Assembly (NCBI RefSeq): GCF_002886045.1
Contig: NZ_CP025791.1
Span: 1,510,001-1,574,000, forward strand
Source of the DNA: Flavivirga eckloniae
GTDB lineage: Bacteria; Bacteroidota; Bacteroidia; Flavobacteriales; Flavobacteriaceae
Direction of reading: 5' to 3'
DNA: 64,000 nt
This document shows, piece after piece, positions 12,700 to 62,672 of the stretch (its first letter is position 1; the number at the start of each line of letters is the position of its first letter). The notes beneath the pieces are model-generated. The model was given only the letters and a program-made list of their open reading frames with translations. It searched no databases and was not told the DNA's origin. Made by a program: the position numbers and the translations under genes.

Positions 12700-13144
12700 C
12701 TCAAAGACGCTGAGGCGCAAAGGTTAATAACAACTCTCACTATGAAATGAACTACTAATTATTACTGAATACTGTTTATTCTCGCAAAGACGCGAAGACG
12801 CAAAGGTTAACTATGATCTCTATCTATTATTACACAAACTCATTATAGCGACTGAACACTAAATACTAGCAAAACGCGAAGACGCAAAGGTTAACTCTAA
12901 TCTCTATCTATTATTACACGAACTCATTATAGCTACTGATCACTGAATACTGCTTATTCTCACAAAGGCACAAAGACGCAAAGGTTAACCCTAATCTCTA
13001 TCTATTATTACACGAACTCATTATAGCAACTGATCACTGAATACTGCTTATTCTCGCAAAGGCGCCAAGACACAAAGGTTAACTCTAATCTCTATCTATA
13101 ATTACACAAACTCATTATAGCTACTGATCACTGAATACTGAACA
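12700..13144. repeat. Tandem array of about five 84-94-bp units
   Basis: This 484-base gene-free stretch is filled by an imperfect tandem repeat. The anchor GCAAAGGTTAA recurs at 12717, 12800, 12884, 12978 and (as ACAAAGGTTAA) 13072, giving steps of 83, 84, 94 and 94. Each unit has a GC-rich module of CGCAAAGACGC type, then an AT-rich stretch (AATCTCTATCTATTATTACAC, AACTCATTATAGC) and then ACTGATCACTGAATACTG heptamers. The last unit runs directly into the stop codon of the minus-strand gene at 13145. No CRISPR-like unique spacers are present. Confidence 0.85.
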
Positions 13145-27774: not shown

Positions 27775-27903
27775 TATTTAATACCAGTATTAACTTTTTA
27801 GAAAATACAAAATAGAGGAGATTCTTCGCTCGCTTCAGCTCCGCACAAGTAAGTCGCTCCGAATAACATTACCAACTTAAACACTGCTAACCGTACACTG
27901 CTT

Positions 27904-28012
27904 ACTGAACACTGAATACTGAATACTGAATACTGAACACTGAACACTGAACACTGAACACTGAATACTGAATACTGAACACTGAATACTGAATACTGAA
28001 TACTGAACACTA
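27904..28012. repeat. Fifteen tandem ACTGAAY heptamers next to the valS stop
   Basis: Fifteen units of ACTGAAC or ACTGAAT run without any break in phase from 27904 to 28008 and end in ACTA, eight bases before the valS stop codon. On the valS transcript the tract would be a 3'-untranslated repeat of TTCAGTR. A degenerate prelude (AACACTGCTAACCGTACACTGCTT) precedes it. A long minus-strand reading frame through the tract (SVFSVQY repeats) is not a gene. Confidence 0.9.
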
Positions 28013-28019
28013 AAAAAAA

Positions 28020-30656
28020 CTACCCCAAACTAGCCAAACTAGCTTTAAGCGTCTCTATTTTAGCCAAAGCATCAGCTTCCTTTTTCTTCTCGCTTGCAAC
28101 CACCTGTTCTGGTGCGCCATTAACAAAACGCTCGTTAGAAAGTTTCTTTTGTACAGATTTCAAAAAGCCTTCTGTATAATTTAATTCTTCAGTTAGCTTT
28201 TTAACTTCCGCCTCAACATCGATACTTCCAGCCATAGGTATAAAATACTCATTAGACTTTACCCTAAAAGTTAAGGCACCATCAACAGCATCAGAAACAT
28301 AATCGATACTTTCTAAGTTTCCTAATTTAGAAATAATACTATCGAAAGTTGTATTGGCTTTCTCGTTATTAATTACAGAAAACCCAATAGCATCTTTAAA
28401 AGCGATGTTCTTTTGTTTTCTAATATTTCTAATTCCAGAAATAACTTCCGAAGCAAATTCAAACTCATTAACCAAAGCCTCATTTATTTCCTTAGACTCT
28501 GGCCATTTTGCAACAATTAATGCTTCTTCTGGAGTTCTGTCTGCTATATAATGCCAAATATCTTCTGTTAAAAATGGCATAAAAGGGTGTACTATCTTTA
28601 GGTTATCCTCAAAAATGGTGATAGCGCTTTTTAAAGTTTTGGCATCAATAGGTTGTTGATATGCCGGTTTAATCATTTCTAAGAACCAACCACAAAAATC
28701 ATCATAAATAAGCTTGTATATGGTCATTAAAGCATCACTCAATCTATATTTACTAAAATGATCTTCAATTTCAATTAAAGTTTTTTGAAATTTGGACTCA
28801 TACCAATCTATAGCTATTTTACTAGACTCTGGCTGTTCTATACTATCATCAACCTGCCACCCATCAACCAATCGGTAAGCATTCCAAATCTTATTACCGA
28901 AACCTTTTCCTTGCTGACAAAGTGCCTCATCGAACATTAAATCGTTTCCTGCTGCAGAACTTAGCAATAATCCAACACGAACACCACCAGCTCCATATTC
29001 TTCTATTAGCTTTAAGGCATCTGGCGAATTCCCCAGTTGCTTAGACATTTTACGACGTTGCTTATCGCGAACCAATCCTGTTAAATACACATTGTTAAAA
29101 GGCTTATCACCTTTATACTCATACCCTGAAATGATCATACGTGCTACCCAAAAGAATAAAATATCTGGACCTGTTACCAAATCGTTTGTTGGGTAATAGT
29201 ATTTAATGTCGTCATTTTCAGGATTCCTTATCCCGTCAAAAACACTAATTGGCCACAACCACGAGCTAAACCAAGTATCTAGAGCATCGGTATCTTGTGT
29301 TAAATCCGAAGTTTGAAGTTCGGAATTCGATGTCTTTTCTCTTGCCAATTTTACGGCGTCTTCTATATGTTCTGCTACTACAAAATCTTCTTTTCCTTTG
29401 CCGTAGTAATACGCAGGGATTTGTTGCCCCCAAAGTAATTGACGCGATATATTCCAATCACGAATATTCTCCATCCAATGACGGTAGGTATTTTCAAATT
29501 TCTTAGGAAATAATTTTATTTCGGAATCTTCTCCTAAAACCGCCTTAATCGCCGGTTTTACCAATTCTTCCATTTTTAAAAACCATTGATCGCTTAAACG
29601 TGGCTCTATAACTGCCTTGGTTCTTTCAGAAGTTCCTACTTTATTAATGTGGGTTTCGGTTTTTACTAAAACCCCTGTTTCTTCTAATTCTTTAGCAACT
29701 GCTTTTCTGGCTACAAAACGATCTTGACCTTCAAAATGCAAGCCGTAACTGTTTAAAGTAGCATCTTCATTAAAAATATCTACAACTTCCAGCTTGTGCT
29801 TATCTCCTAAATTCTTATCATTTTCATCATGCGCTGGCGTAACTTTTAAACATCCCGTACCAAACTCAACATCAACATATTCGTCTTCAATAATAGGAAC
29901 AACGCGATTGCATATAGGCACAATAGCCTTTTTACCTTTTAAATGCTGGAACCTTTCATCGTTCGGATTAATACAAATGGCTGTATCTCCAAAAATAGTC
30001 TCAGGACGTGTTGTAGCTATAGTTAAAGTATCGTTGCTTCCTTCAATCTTATATTTAAGATAATACAGGTTTCCTTGACGCTCCTCATGAATAACCTCTT
30101 CGTCCGACAAGGTTGTTTTTGCTTCAGGGTCCCAGTTTACCATACGATAACCACGGTAAATCAAACCTTTATTATACAAGTCTACAAATACCTTGATAAC
30201 CGCTTCACTCATGTCATCATCCATAGTAAACTTAGTACGCTCCCAATCACAAGAACATCCTAATTTTTTAAGTTGCTCTAAAATAACGCCTCCATATTCA
30301 TGTGTCCAATCCCAAGCATGTTTTAAAAACTCATCGCGAGATAAATCATTTTTATCAATACCCTGCTCTTTTAATTTAGCAACAACTTTTGCCTCGGTAG
30401 CAATAGATGCATGGTCTGTACCAGGTACCCAGCATGCATTTTTTCCTTGTAAACGTGCACGACGAATTAACACATCCTGAATGGTGTTATTAAGCATATG
30501 CCCCATATGTAAAACTCCTGTTACATTTGGCGGAGGTATTACAATGGTATAGGGCTCTCTTTCATCTGGTTCTGAATGAAAATAGTTATGCTTCATCCAG
30601 TAATCATACCACTTGCTTTCTGCTTGACTTGCCTCGTATTTTGAAGGTATTTGCAT
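28020..30656 (-). CDS. valS: Valyl-tRNA synthetase
   Basis: This class I synthetase charges tRNA-Val and edits threonine. From the ATG at 30656 ([20 protein letters not shown]) it has 878 residues. Signature [16 protein letters not shown] (HIGH variant), the editing domain with [13 protein letters not shown], and [10 protein letters not shown] for KMSKS are present; a C-terminal coiled coil (about 810-878) contacts tRNA. A longer start at 30689 would overlap the promoter box at 30687-30694 and is less likely. Confidence 0.96.
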
Positions 30657-37646: not shown

Positions 37647-37742
37647 TAATACCGAATGCAGCCGAAGTACCAGTACCGAACAAAATCGAAGTACTAATGC
37701 TGAGTGAAGCCAAAGTACTTGTACTGAGCGAAGTCGAAGTAT
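37647..37742. repeat. Four tandem 24-bp units of GTACTGAGCGAAGTCGAAGTAC type
   Basis: Units start at 37647, 37671, 37695 and 37719, each 24 bases. The last (TTGTACTGAGCGAAGTCGAAGTAT) carries the common REP core; the others differ at several positions (for example CAGTACCGAACAAAATCGAAGTAC). Each unit has GTAC near its start and at its end. The array lies in the leader of the small membrane protein gene. Confidence 0.85.
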
Positions 37743-55361: not shown

Positions 55362-55470
55362 TATTACTTTTAGCATTAAAGCATAACATATTCCGCTTAT
55401 GCATACTTATTTTTGATTTAAAAATATGAGTTACGTTTCAAATAAAAGCACCCCAAACTCTTCAAAACTG

Positions 55471-55590
55471 ATCACTGAATACCGACCACAGATCACTGAA
55501 TACTGAACACTGCCTACCGATCACTGAACACCGCCTACCGATCACTGAACACCGCCTACCGATCACTGAACACTGCTTACTGAAAACTAA
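55471..55590. repeat. Heptamer tract with 21-bp higher-order units next to the 55594 stop
   Basis: Degenerate ACTGAAY/ACCGACC heptamers form three consecutive 21-bp units TCACTGAACACCGCCTACCGA (55521, 55542, 55563, the last diverged). The tract ends ACTGAAAACTAAC, four bases before the stop codon of the minus-strand iron-sulfur gene. The rest of the 410-base gap is the terminator above and AT-rich sequence. Confidence 0.85.
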
Positions 55591-55593
55591 CAA

Positions 55594-56013
55594 CTACCCC
55601 TCAAACTCAACTTTTACATGAGCGCCATCACAATAGGGTTTATTTGCAGAAGCACCACACCTACAAAACGCAGTGGTTTTATTTTTGGTTTCTTCAGCAC
55701 CGTCTTTGCGGATCACCTTTAATGTACCATAAACCAATAGCGGACCATTCTTCATAACCTCAACTTTCGTTTCTAAAGTTTCAGAAGCATTATCACCTTC
55801 TGCATTCATATAGTAGCGTAAAGCTCCCGAAGGACATTGTTTCACTTGATTTATTATAGCATCAGTAGAAGCTGCATCTATTTTAACCCAAGGACGTTCT
55901 TTTGGTCTGAACACTTGGGACAAACCTTTAGCGCAAATTGCCGAATGAATGCATTTTTCAGCCTCCCAAACAACAGTCGTTTCACCGTTCGAATACTCTT
56001 TTATTTTACTCAT
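55594..56013 (-). CDS. Divergent 4Fe-4S / CDGSH iron-sulfur protein
   Basis: This 139-residue protein joins two small iron-sulfur modules. The N-terminal Fer4-type part has CIHSAICAKGL and QCPSGALRYY; the C-terminal CDGSH domain has FCRCGASANKPYCDGAH. Similar fusions (YjdI-like plus CDGSH) are known in bacteria; they may handle electrons or nitric oxide stress, but the role is not settled. It follows the IclR gene on the same strand after 83 bases. Confidence 0.9.
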   Translation of the reverse strand: MSKIKEYSNGETTVVWEAEKCIHSAICAKGLSQVFRPKERPWVKIDAASTDAIINQVKQCPSGALRYYMNAEGDNASETLETKVEVMKNGPLLVYGTLKVIRKDGAEETKNKTTAFCRCGASANKPYCDGAHVKVEFEG

Positions 56014-60301: not shown

Positions 60302-60364
60302 TGGATGCAGTCCCTCTAAAAGGAACTGAAAATGGAAGAGAGAACACAATCGAAACAACAAAAA

Positions 60365-60775
60365 ATGAGCATACCAAACAACGTAACACCAAGAGGCGCA
60401 TACCCACACACCAAACGTGTTGGTGATTTTATATTCGTATCCGGCACCAGTTCAAGAAGACCTGATAACACCATAGCTGGAGTCGATATTATTGACGACA
60501 TGGGTACCAAACGTTTGAATATTGAAGTACAAACGCGTGAAGTGTTATTAAACATAGAAAAAAATCTAGCCAAAGTAGGTGCTACTTTAAAAGACGTAGT
60601 AGACGTGACGTCTTTTTTAGTAAATATGAATGATTTCGCAGGTTACAATAAAGCCTATGCCGAATTTTTTGATGTAGAAACCGGACCAGCACGTACAACT
60701 GTGGCAGTACACCAGCTACCTCATCCGGATTTGGTTGTGGAGATTAAGGTGATGGCTTATAAAACCAAATTATGA
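60365..60775 (+). CDS. RidA-family 2-aminomuconate deaminase
   Basis: This 136-residue RidA-fold protein (start ATG 60365; an upstream ATG at 60332 adds 11 atypical residues) has [24 protein letters not shown]-type helix [21 protein letters not shown] and [13 protein letters not shown] with the conserved Arg. In kynurenine clusters RidA proteins of this type deaminate 2-aminomuconate; the assignment is based on family and position. Confidence 0.85.
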
Positions 60776-60858
60776 CCTAGCCATAAACCATGGTCTTTCA
60801 ATAAATGATATTCTGTAAAAAATTAGAAATAAATTATAAAAATTAACTAAATGTCTCC

Positions 60859-60874
60859 TCGAGCGCAGTCGAGA
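60859..60874 (+). repeat. Left 16-bp inverted repeat of the GIY-YIG unit
   Basis: TCGAGCGCAGTCGAGA. The reverse complement is found exactly at 61205-61220, on the other side of the GIY-YIG gene. The arm also contains a small internal palindrome (CTCGA and TCGAG). Confidence 0.85.
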
Positions 60875-60882
60875 GGTTAATT

Positions 60883-61203
60883 ATGAAAACTTATTACGTT
60901 TATATATTAAAATGCAATGACGGTTTAACTTATACGGGAGTTACAAATAATATTTCAAGACGTTTTAAAGAACACCAAAAAGGCTTAAACCAAAGTTGTT
61001 TCACTTTTAAAAGAAGACCCTTACAGTTAGTTTTTCATCAAGAATTTAACGATATTAATCAAGCTATTTATTTTGAAAAGAAAATTAAAAATTGGAGTGC
61101 AAAGAAAAAGTTAGCTTTAGCAGATAAAAACTTTGACATGTTACAAATTTTAGCGGAATGCAGAAATGCAACACATTCAAAATATAATTTAGAAAACGAA
61201 TAG
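60883..61203 (+). CDS. Single-domain GIY-YIG endonuclease-like protein
   Basis: This 106-residue protein is a lone GIY-YIG domain of the UPF0213/YhbQ group: YYVYILKCNDGLTYTGVTNNISRRFKEHQKG with the two tyrosines, the Arg and later Glu in YFEKKIKNW. It lies inside the kynurenine cluster, bounded at a few bases by perfect inverted repeats, in a place where a pathway gene would be expected. It looks like a mobile or REP-linked unit. Confidence 0.9.
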   Translation: MKTYYVYILKCNDGLTYTGVTNNISRRFKEHQKGLNQSCFTFKRRPLQLVFHQEFNDINQAIYFEKKIKNWSAKKKLALADKNFDMLQILAECRNATHSKYNLENE

Positions 61204-61204
61204 G

Positions 61205-61220
61205 TCTCGACTGCGCTCGA
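61205..61220 (-). repeat. Right 16-bp inverted repeat of the GIY-YIG unit
   Basis: TCTCGACTGCGCTCGA is the exact reverse complement of the repeat at 60859-60874. It begins two bases after the GIY-YIG stop codon and ends 12 bases before the dehydrogenase gene. Confidence 0.85.
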
Positions 61221-61232
61221 CCAGACAAACCG

Positions 61233-62672
61233 ATGAACATTCAGAATTACATAAACGGCAAATTCACACCTCCTTTCTCTAACGAATGGATAGATAACTA
61301 TTGCCCTGCCGATGGTAAAGTTTACGGACAAATCCCAAACTCATCAAAAGCAGATGTAGAAAACGCATATACTGCAGCAAAATTAGCTTTTCCAGATTGG
61401 TCTAAAACCACCTTGGAAACACGCAGCAGAATCCTTATCAAGATTTCAGAATTACTGGAAGCCAACTTACAACGTTTCGCGGAAGCCGAAAGTAAAGACA
61501 ATGGTAAACCTATTAATTTGGCAAAAACGGTAGATATTCCAAGAGCAGCAAGTAACTTCCGTTTTTTCGGAAATGCCATCACACAATTCGCAAGCGAAAG
61601 CCACGAAAGTGTAGGTCATAATGCCATAAATTACACCTTACGCCAACCCATTGGCGTTGTAGGCTGTATTTCACCTTGGAACCTCCCACTCTATCTCTTT
61701 ACCTGGAAAATTGCCCCTGCCATTGCAGCAGGTAATTGTGTAGTTGCCAAACCAAGTGAAGTCACACCTATAACAGCCTATTTATTAGGCGAGATTTGTA
61801 CAGAGGCCGGGCTACCAAATGGTGTTTTAAACATTGTTCACGGCTTAGGTACTACAACCGGACAGGCTATTGTTGAGCATCCAGATATCAAAGCCATTTC
61901 ATTTACAGGAGGCACAGCTACAGGTGCGCATATTGCTAAAGTAGCTGCTCCAATGTTTAAAAAATTATCTCTGGAACTTGGCGGCAAAAATCCTAATATC
62001 ATTTTTGCAGACTGCGATTATAACGATATGCTAGAAACTACAGTGCGTTCCTCATTTGCCAATCAAGGTCAGATTTGCTTATGCGGAAGTCGCATTTTTG
62101 TAGAAGCTCCCATTTATGAAAAATTTAAAACTGATTTTGTTGAAAAAGTAAAACAACTTAAAGTCGGGCACCCTTCAAAAGAAGACACCAATATAGGCGC
62201 TTTAGTTTCTAAGCCACATTTAGAAAAAGTCATGCAATACATTAACATTGCTAAACAAGAAAACGGAACCATTCTTTACGGAGGGCATAAAATAACCATT
62301 GCAGATTACGAAAATGGCTATTATTTAGAACCAACAATTATAGAAGTCCCAACCGACGAATGCAGAGTGAATCAAGAAGAAATTTTTGGTCCCGTGGTAA
62401 CCATTATGCCTTTTAATACCGAAGCAGAAGTTTTACAAATAGCCAATAAAGTGAAATATGGTTTATCGGCAACATTATGGACTAATGATTTAAAACGTAC
62501 CATGCGCATGAGCAATAAATTACAATCTGGAATCGTATGGGTAAACACCTGGATGTTGCGCGACTTACGAACACCTTTTGGAGGCGTAAAAGATTCAGGA
62601 ATGGGTCGCGAAGGTGGTTTTGAAGCTTTAAGGTTTTTTACAGAAGCAAAAAACGTATGTATAAAGTATTAA
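61233..62672 (+). CDS. 2-aminomuconic semialdehyde dehydrogenase
   Basis: This is a 479-residue NAD-dependent aldehyde dehydrogenase. SPWNLPLYLFTWKIAPA, SFTGGTATG, LELGGKNPNI with Glu248 and NQGQICLCGSRIF with the nucleophile Cys282 are present. In a kynurenine cluster this enzyme oxidises 2-aminomuconate semialdehyde to 2-aminomuconate; other hydroxymuconic semialdehyde dehydrogenases are close relatives, so the substrate comes from context. Confidence 0.9.
   Translation: MNIQNYINGKFTPPFSNEWIDNYCPADGKVYGQIPNSSKADVENAYTAAKLAFPDWSKTTLETRSRILIKISELLEANLQRFAEAESKDNGKPINLAKTVDIPRAASNFRFFGNAITQFASESHESVGHNAINYTLRQPIGVVGCISPWNLPLYLFTWKIAPAIAAGNCVVAKPSEVTPITAYLLGEICTEAGLPNGVLNIVHGLGTTTGQAIVEHPDIKAISFTGGTATGAHIAKVAAPMFKKLSLELGGKNPNIIFADCDYNDMLETTVRSSFANQGQICLCGSRIFVEAPIYEKFKTDFVEKVKQLKVGHPSKEDTNIGALVSKPHLEKVMQYINIAKQENGTILYGGHKITIADYENGYYLEPTIIEVPTDECRVNQEEIFGPVVTIMPFNTEAEVLQIANKVKYGLSATLWTNDLKRTMRMSNKLQSGIVWVNTWMLRDLRTPFGGVKDSGMGREGGFEALRFFTEAKNVCIKY

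Follow-up and report, generated by a model that had tools for sequence, protein, structure and literature searches.

A GIY-YIG nuclease gene enclosed by inverted TGTC-tagged palindromes in Flavivirga eckloniae, and a candidate partner enzyme for CGTC/TGTC-tagged REPs

We have found in the flavobacterium Flavivirga eckloniae a small GIY-YIG nuclease gene that, together with two inverted palindromes, forms one 376-bp unit (60852-61227) with TGTC tags outermost. The link between nuclease and palindrome is physical and holds over the nuclease tree, the stem of the palindrome covaries, and a palindrome pair has been inserted between two genes that overlap in relatives. We read these nucleases as a candidate for the missing partner enzyme of the REPs tagged with CGTC or TGTC.

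The unit in the kynurenine cluster

The window, i.e., the whole stretch of 64,000 nucleotides analysed here, contains the unit and its two neighbours as follows:

60332..60775, forward strand: Rid-family gene, left of the unit (upstream) at what we call site A
60852..~60877, forward strand: 5' arm, TGTC tag (60852-60855) and then the palindrome CC-TCGAGCGCAGTCGAGA-GG
60859..60874, forward strand: exact 16-bp core of the 5' arm, TCGAGCGCAGTCGAGA
60883..61203, forward strand: GIY-YIG nuclease gene, ORF of 106 aa, profile match PF01541
~61203..61227, reverse strand: 3' arm, palindrome GG-TCTCGACTGCGCTCGA-CC and then GACA, the reverse complement of the TGTC tag
61205..61220, reverse strand: exact 16-bp core of the 3' arm, TCGAGCGCAGTCGAGA inverted
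61233..62672, forward strand: gene for an aldehyde dehydrogenase, right of the unit (downstream) at site A

An earlier note on this DNA had described a GIY-YIG gene between exact 16-bp inverted arms at distances of 8 and 1 bases, and both the coordinates and the PF01541 match agree with it, the order being 5' core, 8 bases, nuclease ORF, 1 base and 3' core. The full arms exceed 16 bp, from the TGTC at 60852 and to the GACA that ends at 61227, and the 3' arm overlaps the final base of the nuclease stop codon. The arms are unlike at their outer pairs (CC/GG on the left, GG/CC on the right). TCGAGCGCAGTCGAGA has two matches only in the window, even when up to 3 mismatches are allowed, and as many were found in 1 of 100 shuffles; on this figure, and on the flank-repeat counts against controls given below, an origin of the arms by chance was rejected.

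The 106-aa protein is a single GIY-YIG domain (Pfam PF01541, E 1.2e-17, residues 4-76), with the UPF0213 proteins 1zg2 (E 1.6e-11) and 1ywl (E 6.4e-8) as its nearest sequences in the PDB. Residues Y7, Y17, R27, H31 and E65, which we take to be the GIY-YIG active site, are near-invariant across 186 aligned relatives. The neighbours include a kynureninase gene (TIGR01814, above cut-off) and an FAD monooxygenase in the place where KMO is expected, whose best models are all under their cut-offs. The Rid-family gene matches TIGR00004 under the cut-off, and so does the aldehyde dehydrogenase its best model, TIGR03216 (2-hydroxymuconic semialdehyde dehydrogenase). Repeats of other kinds are also present in the window, namely arrays of 7-bp (TACTGAA-like) repeats at 27834-28054 and 55418-55610, and a 94-bp repeat in 4.1 copies at 12764-13140.

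Palindrome class tracks nuclease clade

The relatives of the nuclease were the best 80 of 159 from a scan of species genomes, to which further GIY-YIG genes from 120 family genomes were added. From 239 profile matches 186 rows were kept, once duplicates had been dropped, together with rows close to a contig end, frames shorter than 70 or longer than 160 aa and domains that were not complete; 104 of the collected rows came 88 via Pfam, 15 via similarity search and 1 by another way. We then looked for exact inverted repeats of at least 10 nt between the 100 bases on either side of each ORF. They were present at 78 of the 186 GIY-YIG ORFs and at 30 of the 88 drawn through Pfam, which are the top of the score list and not a random sample. 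The controls gave 13 of 532 for the remaining ORFs of these loci and 8.7% for 554 cross-pairings of GIY-YIG flanks. The earlier note had proposed to see how often GIY-YIG genes are bounded by the same inverted arms, and inverted flanks do recur (30/88 vs 13/532).

The types of palindrome differ by nuclease clade, TCGAGCG.AGTCGAGA, TTCGAGTG..GTATCGAGAA, TTCCTGC..GCAGGAA, CTGAAC..GTTCAG and ATTGCGAG being among them. With six classes, set as patterns after viewing the flanks, 136 of the 186 rows could be typed (87 on both sides, 49 on one side), and 50 were left without class. Over the 136 typed rows the class changes 9 times on a nuclease tree of few columns and many open forks, compared with 64-78 changes in 200 shuffles. 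Palindrome class tracks nuclease clade. The geometry is also recurrent: among 55 class-A rows, 43 had a recognisable 5' core, and in 22 of these it ends 6-10 nt ahead of the start; the 3' core begins 1-8 nt past the stop in 27 of 33. In the 29 loci that had both arms by pattern (186 searched), the tags were outside in 22 and inside in 3, and in the remaining 4 the arms were direct; CC left with GG right was the commonest pairing (13/25 inverted units). An array at one locus (L283, G013:C15:33800-36700) consists of class-B palindromes and the nuclease gene in tandem, at periods of roughly 180 and 1035 bp.

Nuclease and repeat also tend to occur in the same genomes, in tests on the 120 family genomes that ignore kinship and use genome sets hand-picked from E-value bands. 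Of the 21 genomes that carry a class-A-like nuclease, 17 have the exact class-A core, compared with 32 of the 99 lacking one; the set of 21 includes broken copies, and in one of its genomes (G022) the match falls in class B on the tree. For the class-B pattern the figures were 21/22 and 29/98, the class-B-like band (about 1e-27 to 2e-21) being not all class B and its lower edge hand-set. The crossed tests were weakly positive, with the class-A motif in 9 of 17 class-B-like-only genomes vs 23/82 (p 0.01), and the class-B motif in 9 of 16 class-A-only genomes vs 20/82 (p 0.007). Many genomes have the repeat without a close nuclease, as in the 32/99 of class A, and this counts against the view of the nuclease as mobiliser.

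Some small GIY-YIG genes, of about 80-105 aa, have tRNA genes as neighbours and make up a group with weak support. Its loci include L005, L006, L002 (in the genome of F. eckloniae itself), L247, L276, L279, L281, L240, L266 and L187, and also L243, L273, L166, L233, L278 and L271. A tRNA was present in 16 of the 21 loci of the group, some of them first noticed through the tRNA sequence in their flanks, vs 0 of 10 palindrome-bound loci. In L005 and L006 the nuclease gene is preceded by a decayed tRNA-Pro-like copy and runs with its stop codon into the 5' end of an intact tRNA-Pro. These two look as if they were homing elements that rebuild their tRNA target.

Copies in the genome and covariation of the stem

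The arms had been assigned in the earlier note to a REP-like family scattered in the window. The scatter is borne out for the genome, where the 14-bp core of the arms has 28 exact copies in 5.67 Mb (G000) and the reversed-pattern control has 0. In the window, the two arms are the only copies of the exact family, and only looser relatives of another palindrome class appear, near 37726 and 62725. Four of the genomic copies make two facing pairs 50 bp apart, similar to REP dimers. This genome has 10 other GIY-YIG matches, and none of the 26 further core copies is found within 1.5 kb of any of them. These dispersed palindromes are enzyme-less members of the family that bounds the nuclease.

As isolated single DNA strands, the two arms of the window had a hairpin energy no better than shuffles, and for this reason the evidence for structure is the covariation. 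In 204 distinct class-A copies from the collected loci, not independent of one another, the first stem pair was Watson-Crick in 201 (GC 74, TA 63, CG 46, AT 18), where shuffles gave a mean of 60 and at most 81, and the second in 192. G-T pairs were 0 at pair 1 and 4 at pair 2. Such near-pure Watson-Crick variation with few G-T suits DNA better than RNA, and plain RNA hairpins are disfavoured by it. A GTC was located at one fixed offset in 151 of the 204 copies. In 31 of the 204 class-A-like palindromes, TGTTTA stands in place of the TGTC tag; it was seen in Psychroflexus loci (L088, L109), among others, and may reflect a change of tag in one lineage. In L020, L286 and L301, a palindrome of one class was seen by eye nested in the loop of a palindrome of another class.

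The pattern beyond the Bacteroidota

Nuclease matches were found in 23 plasmid records and 17 phage records, all below 60% identity, and 12 plasmid-collection loci from the 23 matching records were examined. The gene of Rhizobium sp. CIAT894 has CGTCATCCCAGGGCTTGACCCTGGGATCCA on the left and its exact inverse on the right. A DNA search with this unit retrieved units flanked on either side by CGTC-type arms in inverted orientation from Shinella HZN7, Shinella WSC3-e and S. meliloti Ak57, the two Shinella units sharing their context and that of Ak57 located in gltA-lpxB. The Rhizobium arms are exact, and the 3' arm of the Shinella and Ak57 units differs by one or two changes. The similarity to the Rhizobium unit begins at the CGTC tag, within a base, in each of the three (3/3). 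In the Rhizobiaceae, nuclease genes with inverted CGTC-tagged palindromes on both sides occur in three contexts. One arm at least is present in Neorhizobium; in Rhizobium L51/94 no arm was seen within 110 bases.

By eye, repeats on both sides were recognised in S. meliloti, Methylobacterium and Planktothrix, and a single palindrome upstream in one Sphingomonas locus. None were seen by eye in the other Sphingomonas, Cupriavidus, Acetoanaerobium, Photobacterium and Radiobacillus loci. The flanks of the Sinorhizobium K101 and Subdoligranulum loci were viewed without the 3' side. Among Planctomycetes, one Scalindua relative (L097) carries GTCACCCTGAGCGGAGTCGAAGGGTGA on both sides in direct orientation, and another (L098) a similar palindrome on one side.

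An old resident at its locus

We read by eye, with tblastn pieces, the state of site A (the RidA-ALDH junction) in 12 congeners. Four had the nuclease open, two had it with a frameshift, two with an internal deletion and one truncated, and three had none. The unit or its remains are thus present in 9/12, indicating that it is inherited there and decaying. Other copies of the nuclease were searched for in two genomes, and matches of 65% and 48% identity were found in F. eckloniae and none in G019. In the family, 64 genomes have the dehydrogenase. Among the best 30 of these loci, counting those with both neighbours, the nuclease (remnants included) was found in 2 of 28 at site A and in 4 of 30 at site B (ALDH-SDR). 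A spacer of at most 20 bases was found in 5 others at site A and 2 others at site B. Class-A nucleases were located elsewhere too, either between other genes of this operon or away from it.

All this describes the gene-bearing unit as an old, dispensable resident, held by several lineages at different sites. We saw no recent jump of the gene-bearing unit, the near-identical extra copies examined being in tandem. A dispersed pair in G106 was considered as an example of a jump and rejected, as the shared sequence extends past the gene. In L159, a RidA-ALDH gap of 120 bp, only the two ends of the nuclease gene were recognised by eye between the arms, and the copy would be an internal-deletion derivative, like an enzyme-less pair.

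Insertion of palindrome pairs

The genes nosF and nosY overlap by 8 nt in 6 of 11 congeners, and also, unsplit, in all 28 other-genus loci read (28/28, from the best 30 per search; 53 other-genus genomes matched). In the remaining 5 of the 11, F. eckloniae included, they are split by a palindrome pair with a net gain of 86-113 bp, or 53 in a degraded copy; the twelfth congener had no nosY match. At the filled sites the nosF stop codon is at the beginning of the inserted stretch, and the tags of the pair face inward. The overlap found in 28 other-genus loci and 6 congeners indicates that it is ancestral and that the palindrome pair was inserted. Filled and empty states are mixed inside small clades of a genus tree that is weakly supported (2/9 inner branches starred), making loss, exchange and repeated gain inseparable at this site. 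At a second site, cmd-nx, 4 of 12 congeners have a palindrome pair, 1 has another gene, and in the other 7 divergence is too great for the ends to be placed.

Several claims of the earlier note can be judged here. Empty sites in relatives, which it had suggested looking for, were found for the palindrome pair at nosF-nosY. Target duplications, also suggested, were not recognised by eye between filled and empty nosF-nosY sites, where the flanks are AT-rich and diverged. Its idea of a minimal mobile element that spreads REPs is partly supported, given that a palindrome pair has been inserted at a new site and, on the other side, that the gene-bearing unit is inherited and decaying at site A. It had also named what would speak against this idea, homologues without arms and vertical inheritance at the locus: many homologues do have arms, and within the genus inheritance at the locus is indeed vertical.

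Discussion

The explanation that we consider probable is that the TGTC-palindrome pair encloses its own matched nuclease and works like a RAYT-REP unit with hydrolytic cleavage. The nuclease would recognise the tag and the hairpin in single-stranded DNA, for which the lagging-strand template or incoming DNA are candidate sources. It would cut the tag-hairpin DNA hydrolytically, and host repair would then copy or join the cut segment elsewhere. We propose hydrolytic cleavage with host repair because the GIY-YIG domain is not known to join strands alone. A wider proposal can be put forward only tentatively, and we hold it to be possible, with somewhat less than even chances: GIY-YIG nucleases might be the long-missing mobilisers of CGTC/TGTC REPs across bacteria, each clade driving its own hairpin, in an autonomous element of less than 400 bp that moves via hydrolytic cutting of ssDNA and host repair.

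The chief rival, which we regard as rather unlikely, retains the pairing of nuclease and repeat and swaps transposition for DNA uptake and recombination. The nuclease would cut incoming or exposed ssDNA at the repeat, shaping transformation and recombination; cassettes, nuclease included, would be exchanged by homologous recombination, and the repeats would be marks and not transposons. The Ssn nucleases of Neisseria reportedly cut ssDNA at the NTS repeat, present in hundreds of copies, and modulate transformation. The mixed filled and empty states at nosF-nosY and the inheritance at the same site within the genus fit such an exchange of alleles, and according to Di Nocera et al. (2013, PMC3733652) the CGTC-1 repeats of Neisseria are the dRS3 repeats. 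However, the repeats must first arise at new sites, and recombination alone does not put a palindrome pair into the overlapping nosF-nosY genes, unsplit in every other-genus locus read.

Both remaining alternatives appear very improbable to us. In one, the palindromes owe their spread to a RAYT-type (Y1) transposase, and two of them happened to enclose the nuclease gene. There are 4 Y1_Tnp matches in the genome of F. eckloniae, and RAYTs are the proposed movers of GTAG-tagged REPs in the 2013 survey (PMC3733652), which also found no tyrosine transposase gene flanked by CGTC repeats. When classes A, C, D and E were sought within 1.5 kb of the 4 Y1 loci, none was found, with one single class-B match, and RAYT mobilisation is disfavoured by the absence of class-A arms in these surroundings. 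Chance capture, besides, does not give inverted flanks in 30 of 88 genes nor the matching of class with clade. In the other, the small gene is inherited vertically and its arms are hairpins of an ordinary regulatory kind or terminators, unrelated to mobility. The inheritance of the unit at site A and a 5' arm that adjoins the start codon are what would be expected from it; yet the scarcity of G-T at both stem pairs suits DNA over RNA, the 26 further core copies are away from the other GIY-YIG matches, and a pair was inserted at nosF-nosY. Among these explanations, we favour the one of a palindrome pair with its own matched nuclease.

The mover of CGTC/TGTC REPs was left open in the 2013 survey (PMC3733652), and several phyla are concerned. 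With a nuclease found inside the pair and tracked by palindrome class, from Flavobacteria to Rhizobiaceae, this question becomes testable with one small protein and oligonucleotides. The link would also join the single-strand nuclease work reported for Neisseria to the REP field.

Comparison with known systems

Work of 2025 on Ssn and NTS is said to describe GIY-YIG ssDNA nucleases paired with genome repeats. The window protein would share with that family the single GIY-YIG domain with intact putative active-site residues, and a multi-copy genomic repeat matched to the nuclease. It would differ in role, that of Ssn being reportedly in natural transformation. We have lowered our claim of novelty because this work may already state part of the link between nuclease and repeat. 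Among the papers listed in our literature searches, none was on a link of GIY-YIG nucleases to REP or CGTC palindromes; a Moraxella paper (PMC9465073) contains both GIY-YIG and RAYT.

The UPF0213-type proteins (PDB 1zg2, 1ywl) share by sequence the same GIY-YIG domain. In contrast, no arms of this kind were seen at a GIY-YIG relative in Radiobacillus, which has a conserved gene on each side. With insertion sequences and MITEs the family shares insertion at a new site, i.e., that of the palindrome pair at nosF-nosY, polarised by 28 outgroup loci.

The similarity is larger with the CGTC REP superfamily. According to Di Nocera et al. (PMC3733652), REPs tagged with CGTC or TGTC are found in five phyla, Bacteroidetes included, mostly as pairs with the tags outside, and the partners are unlike (heterodimers) in several families. 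Both window arms have the unpaired TGTC tag at one end of the palindrome, tags-outside pairs predominate here as well (22/29 GIY-YIG loci with both arms), and the Rhizobiaceae arms have the CGTC tag and the CCA tail described for the superfamily. The four CGTC families described there have stems of 8-9 bp and loops of 4-5, whereas in the class-A arm the stem is shorter, there is a GA bulge, and the loop has six bases. A further difference is that those REPs "apparently lack a dedicated transposase", while here a GIY-YIG nuclease is located between the pair.

Finally, the RAYT-REP units, REPtrons and REPINs, as described in PMC3116915, PMC8266576 and PMC3733652, share with the unit a small enzyme gene bounded by tagged palindromes and many enzyme-less palindromes in the genome. 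They have an HUH/Y1 tyrosine transposase and a GTAG tag, where our unit has a GIY-YIG nuclease and a TGTC tag. The suggestion of the earlier note of a RAYT-like anatomy with GIY-YIG in place of the tyrosine transposase is therefore supported, and the arrangement recurs in other genera and in the Rhizobiaceae. The window unit resembles RAYT-REP in anatomy and is not a member of it, as both enzyme and tag differ.
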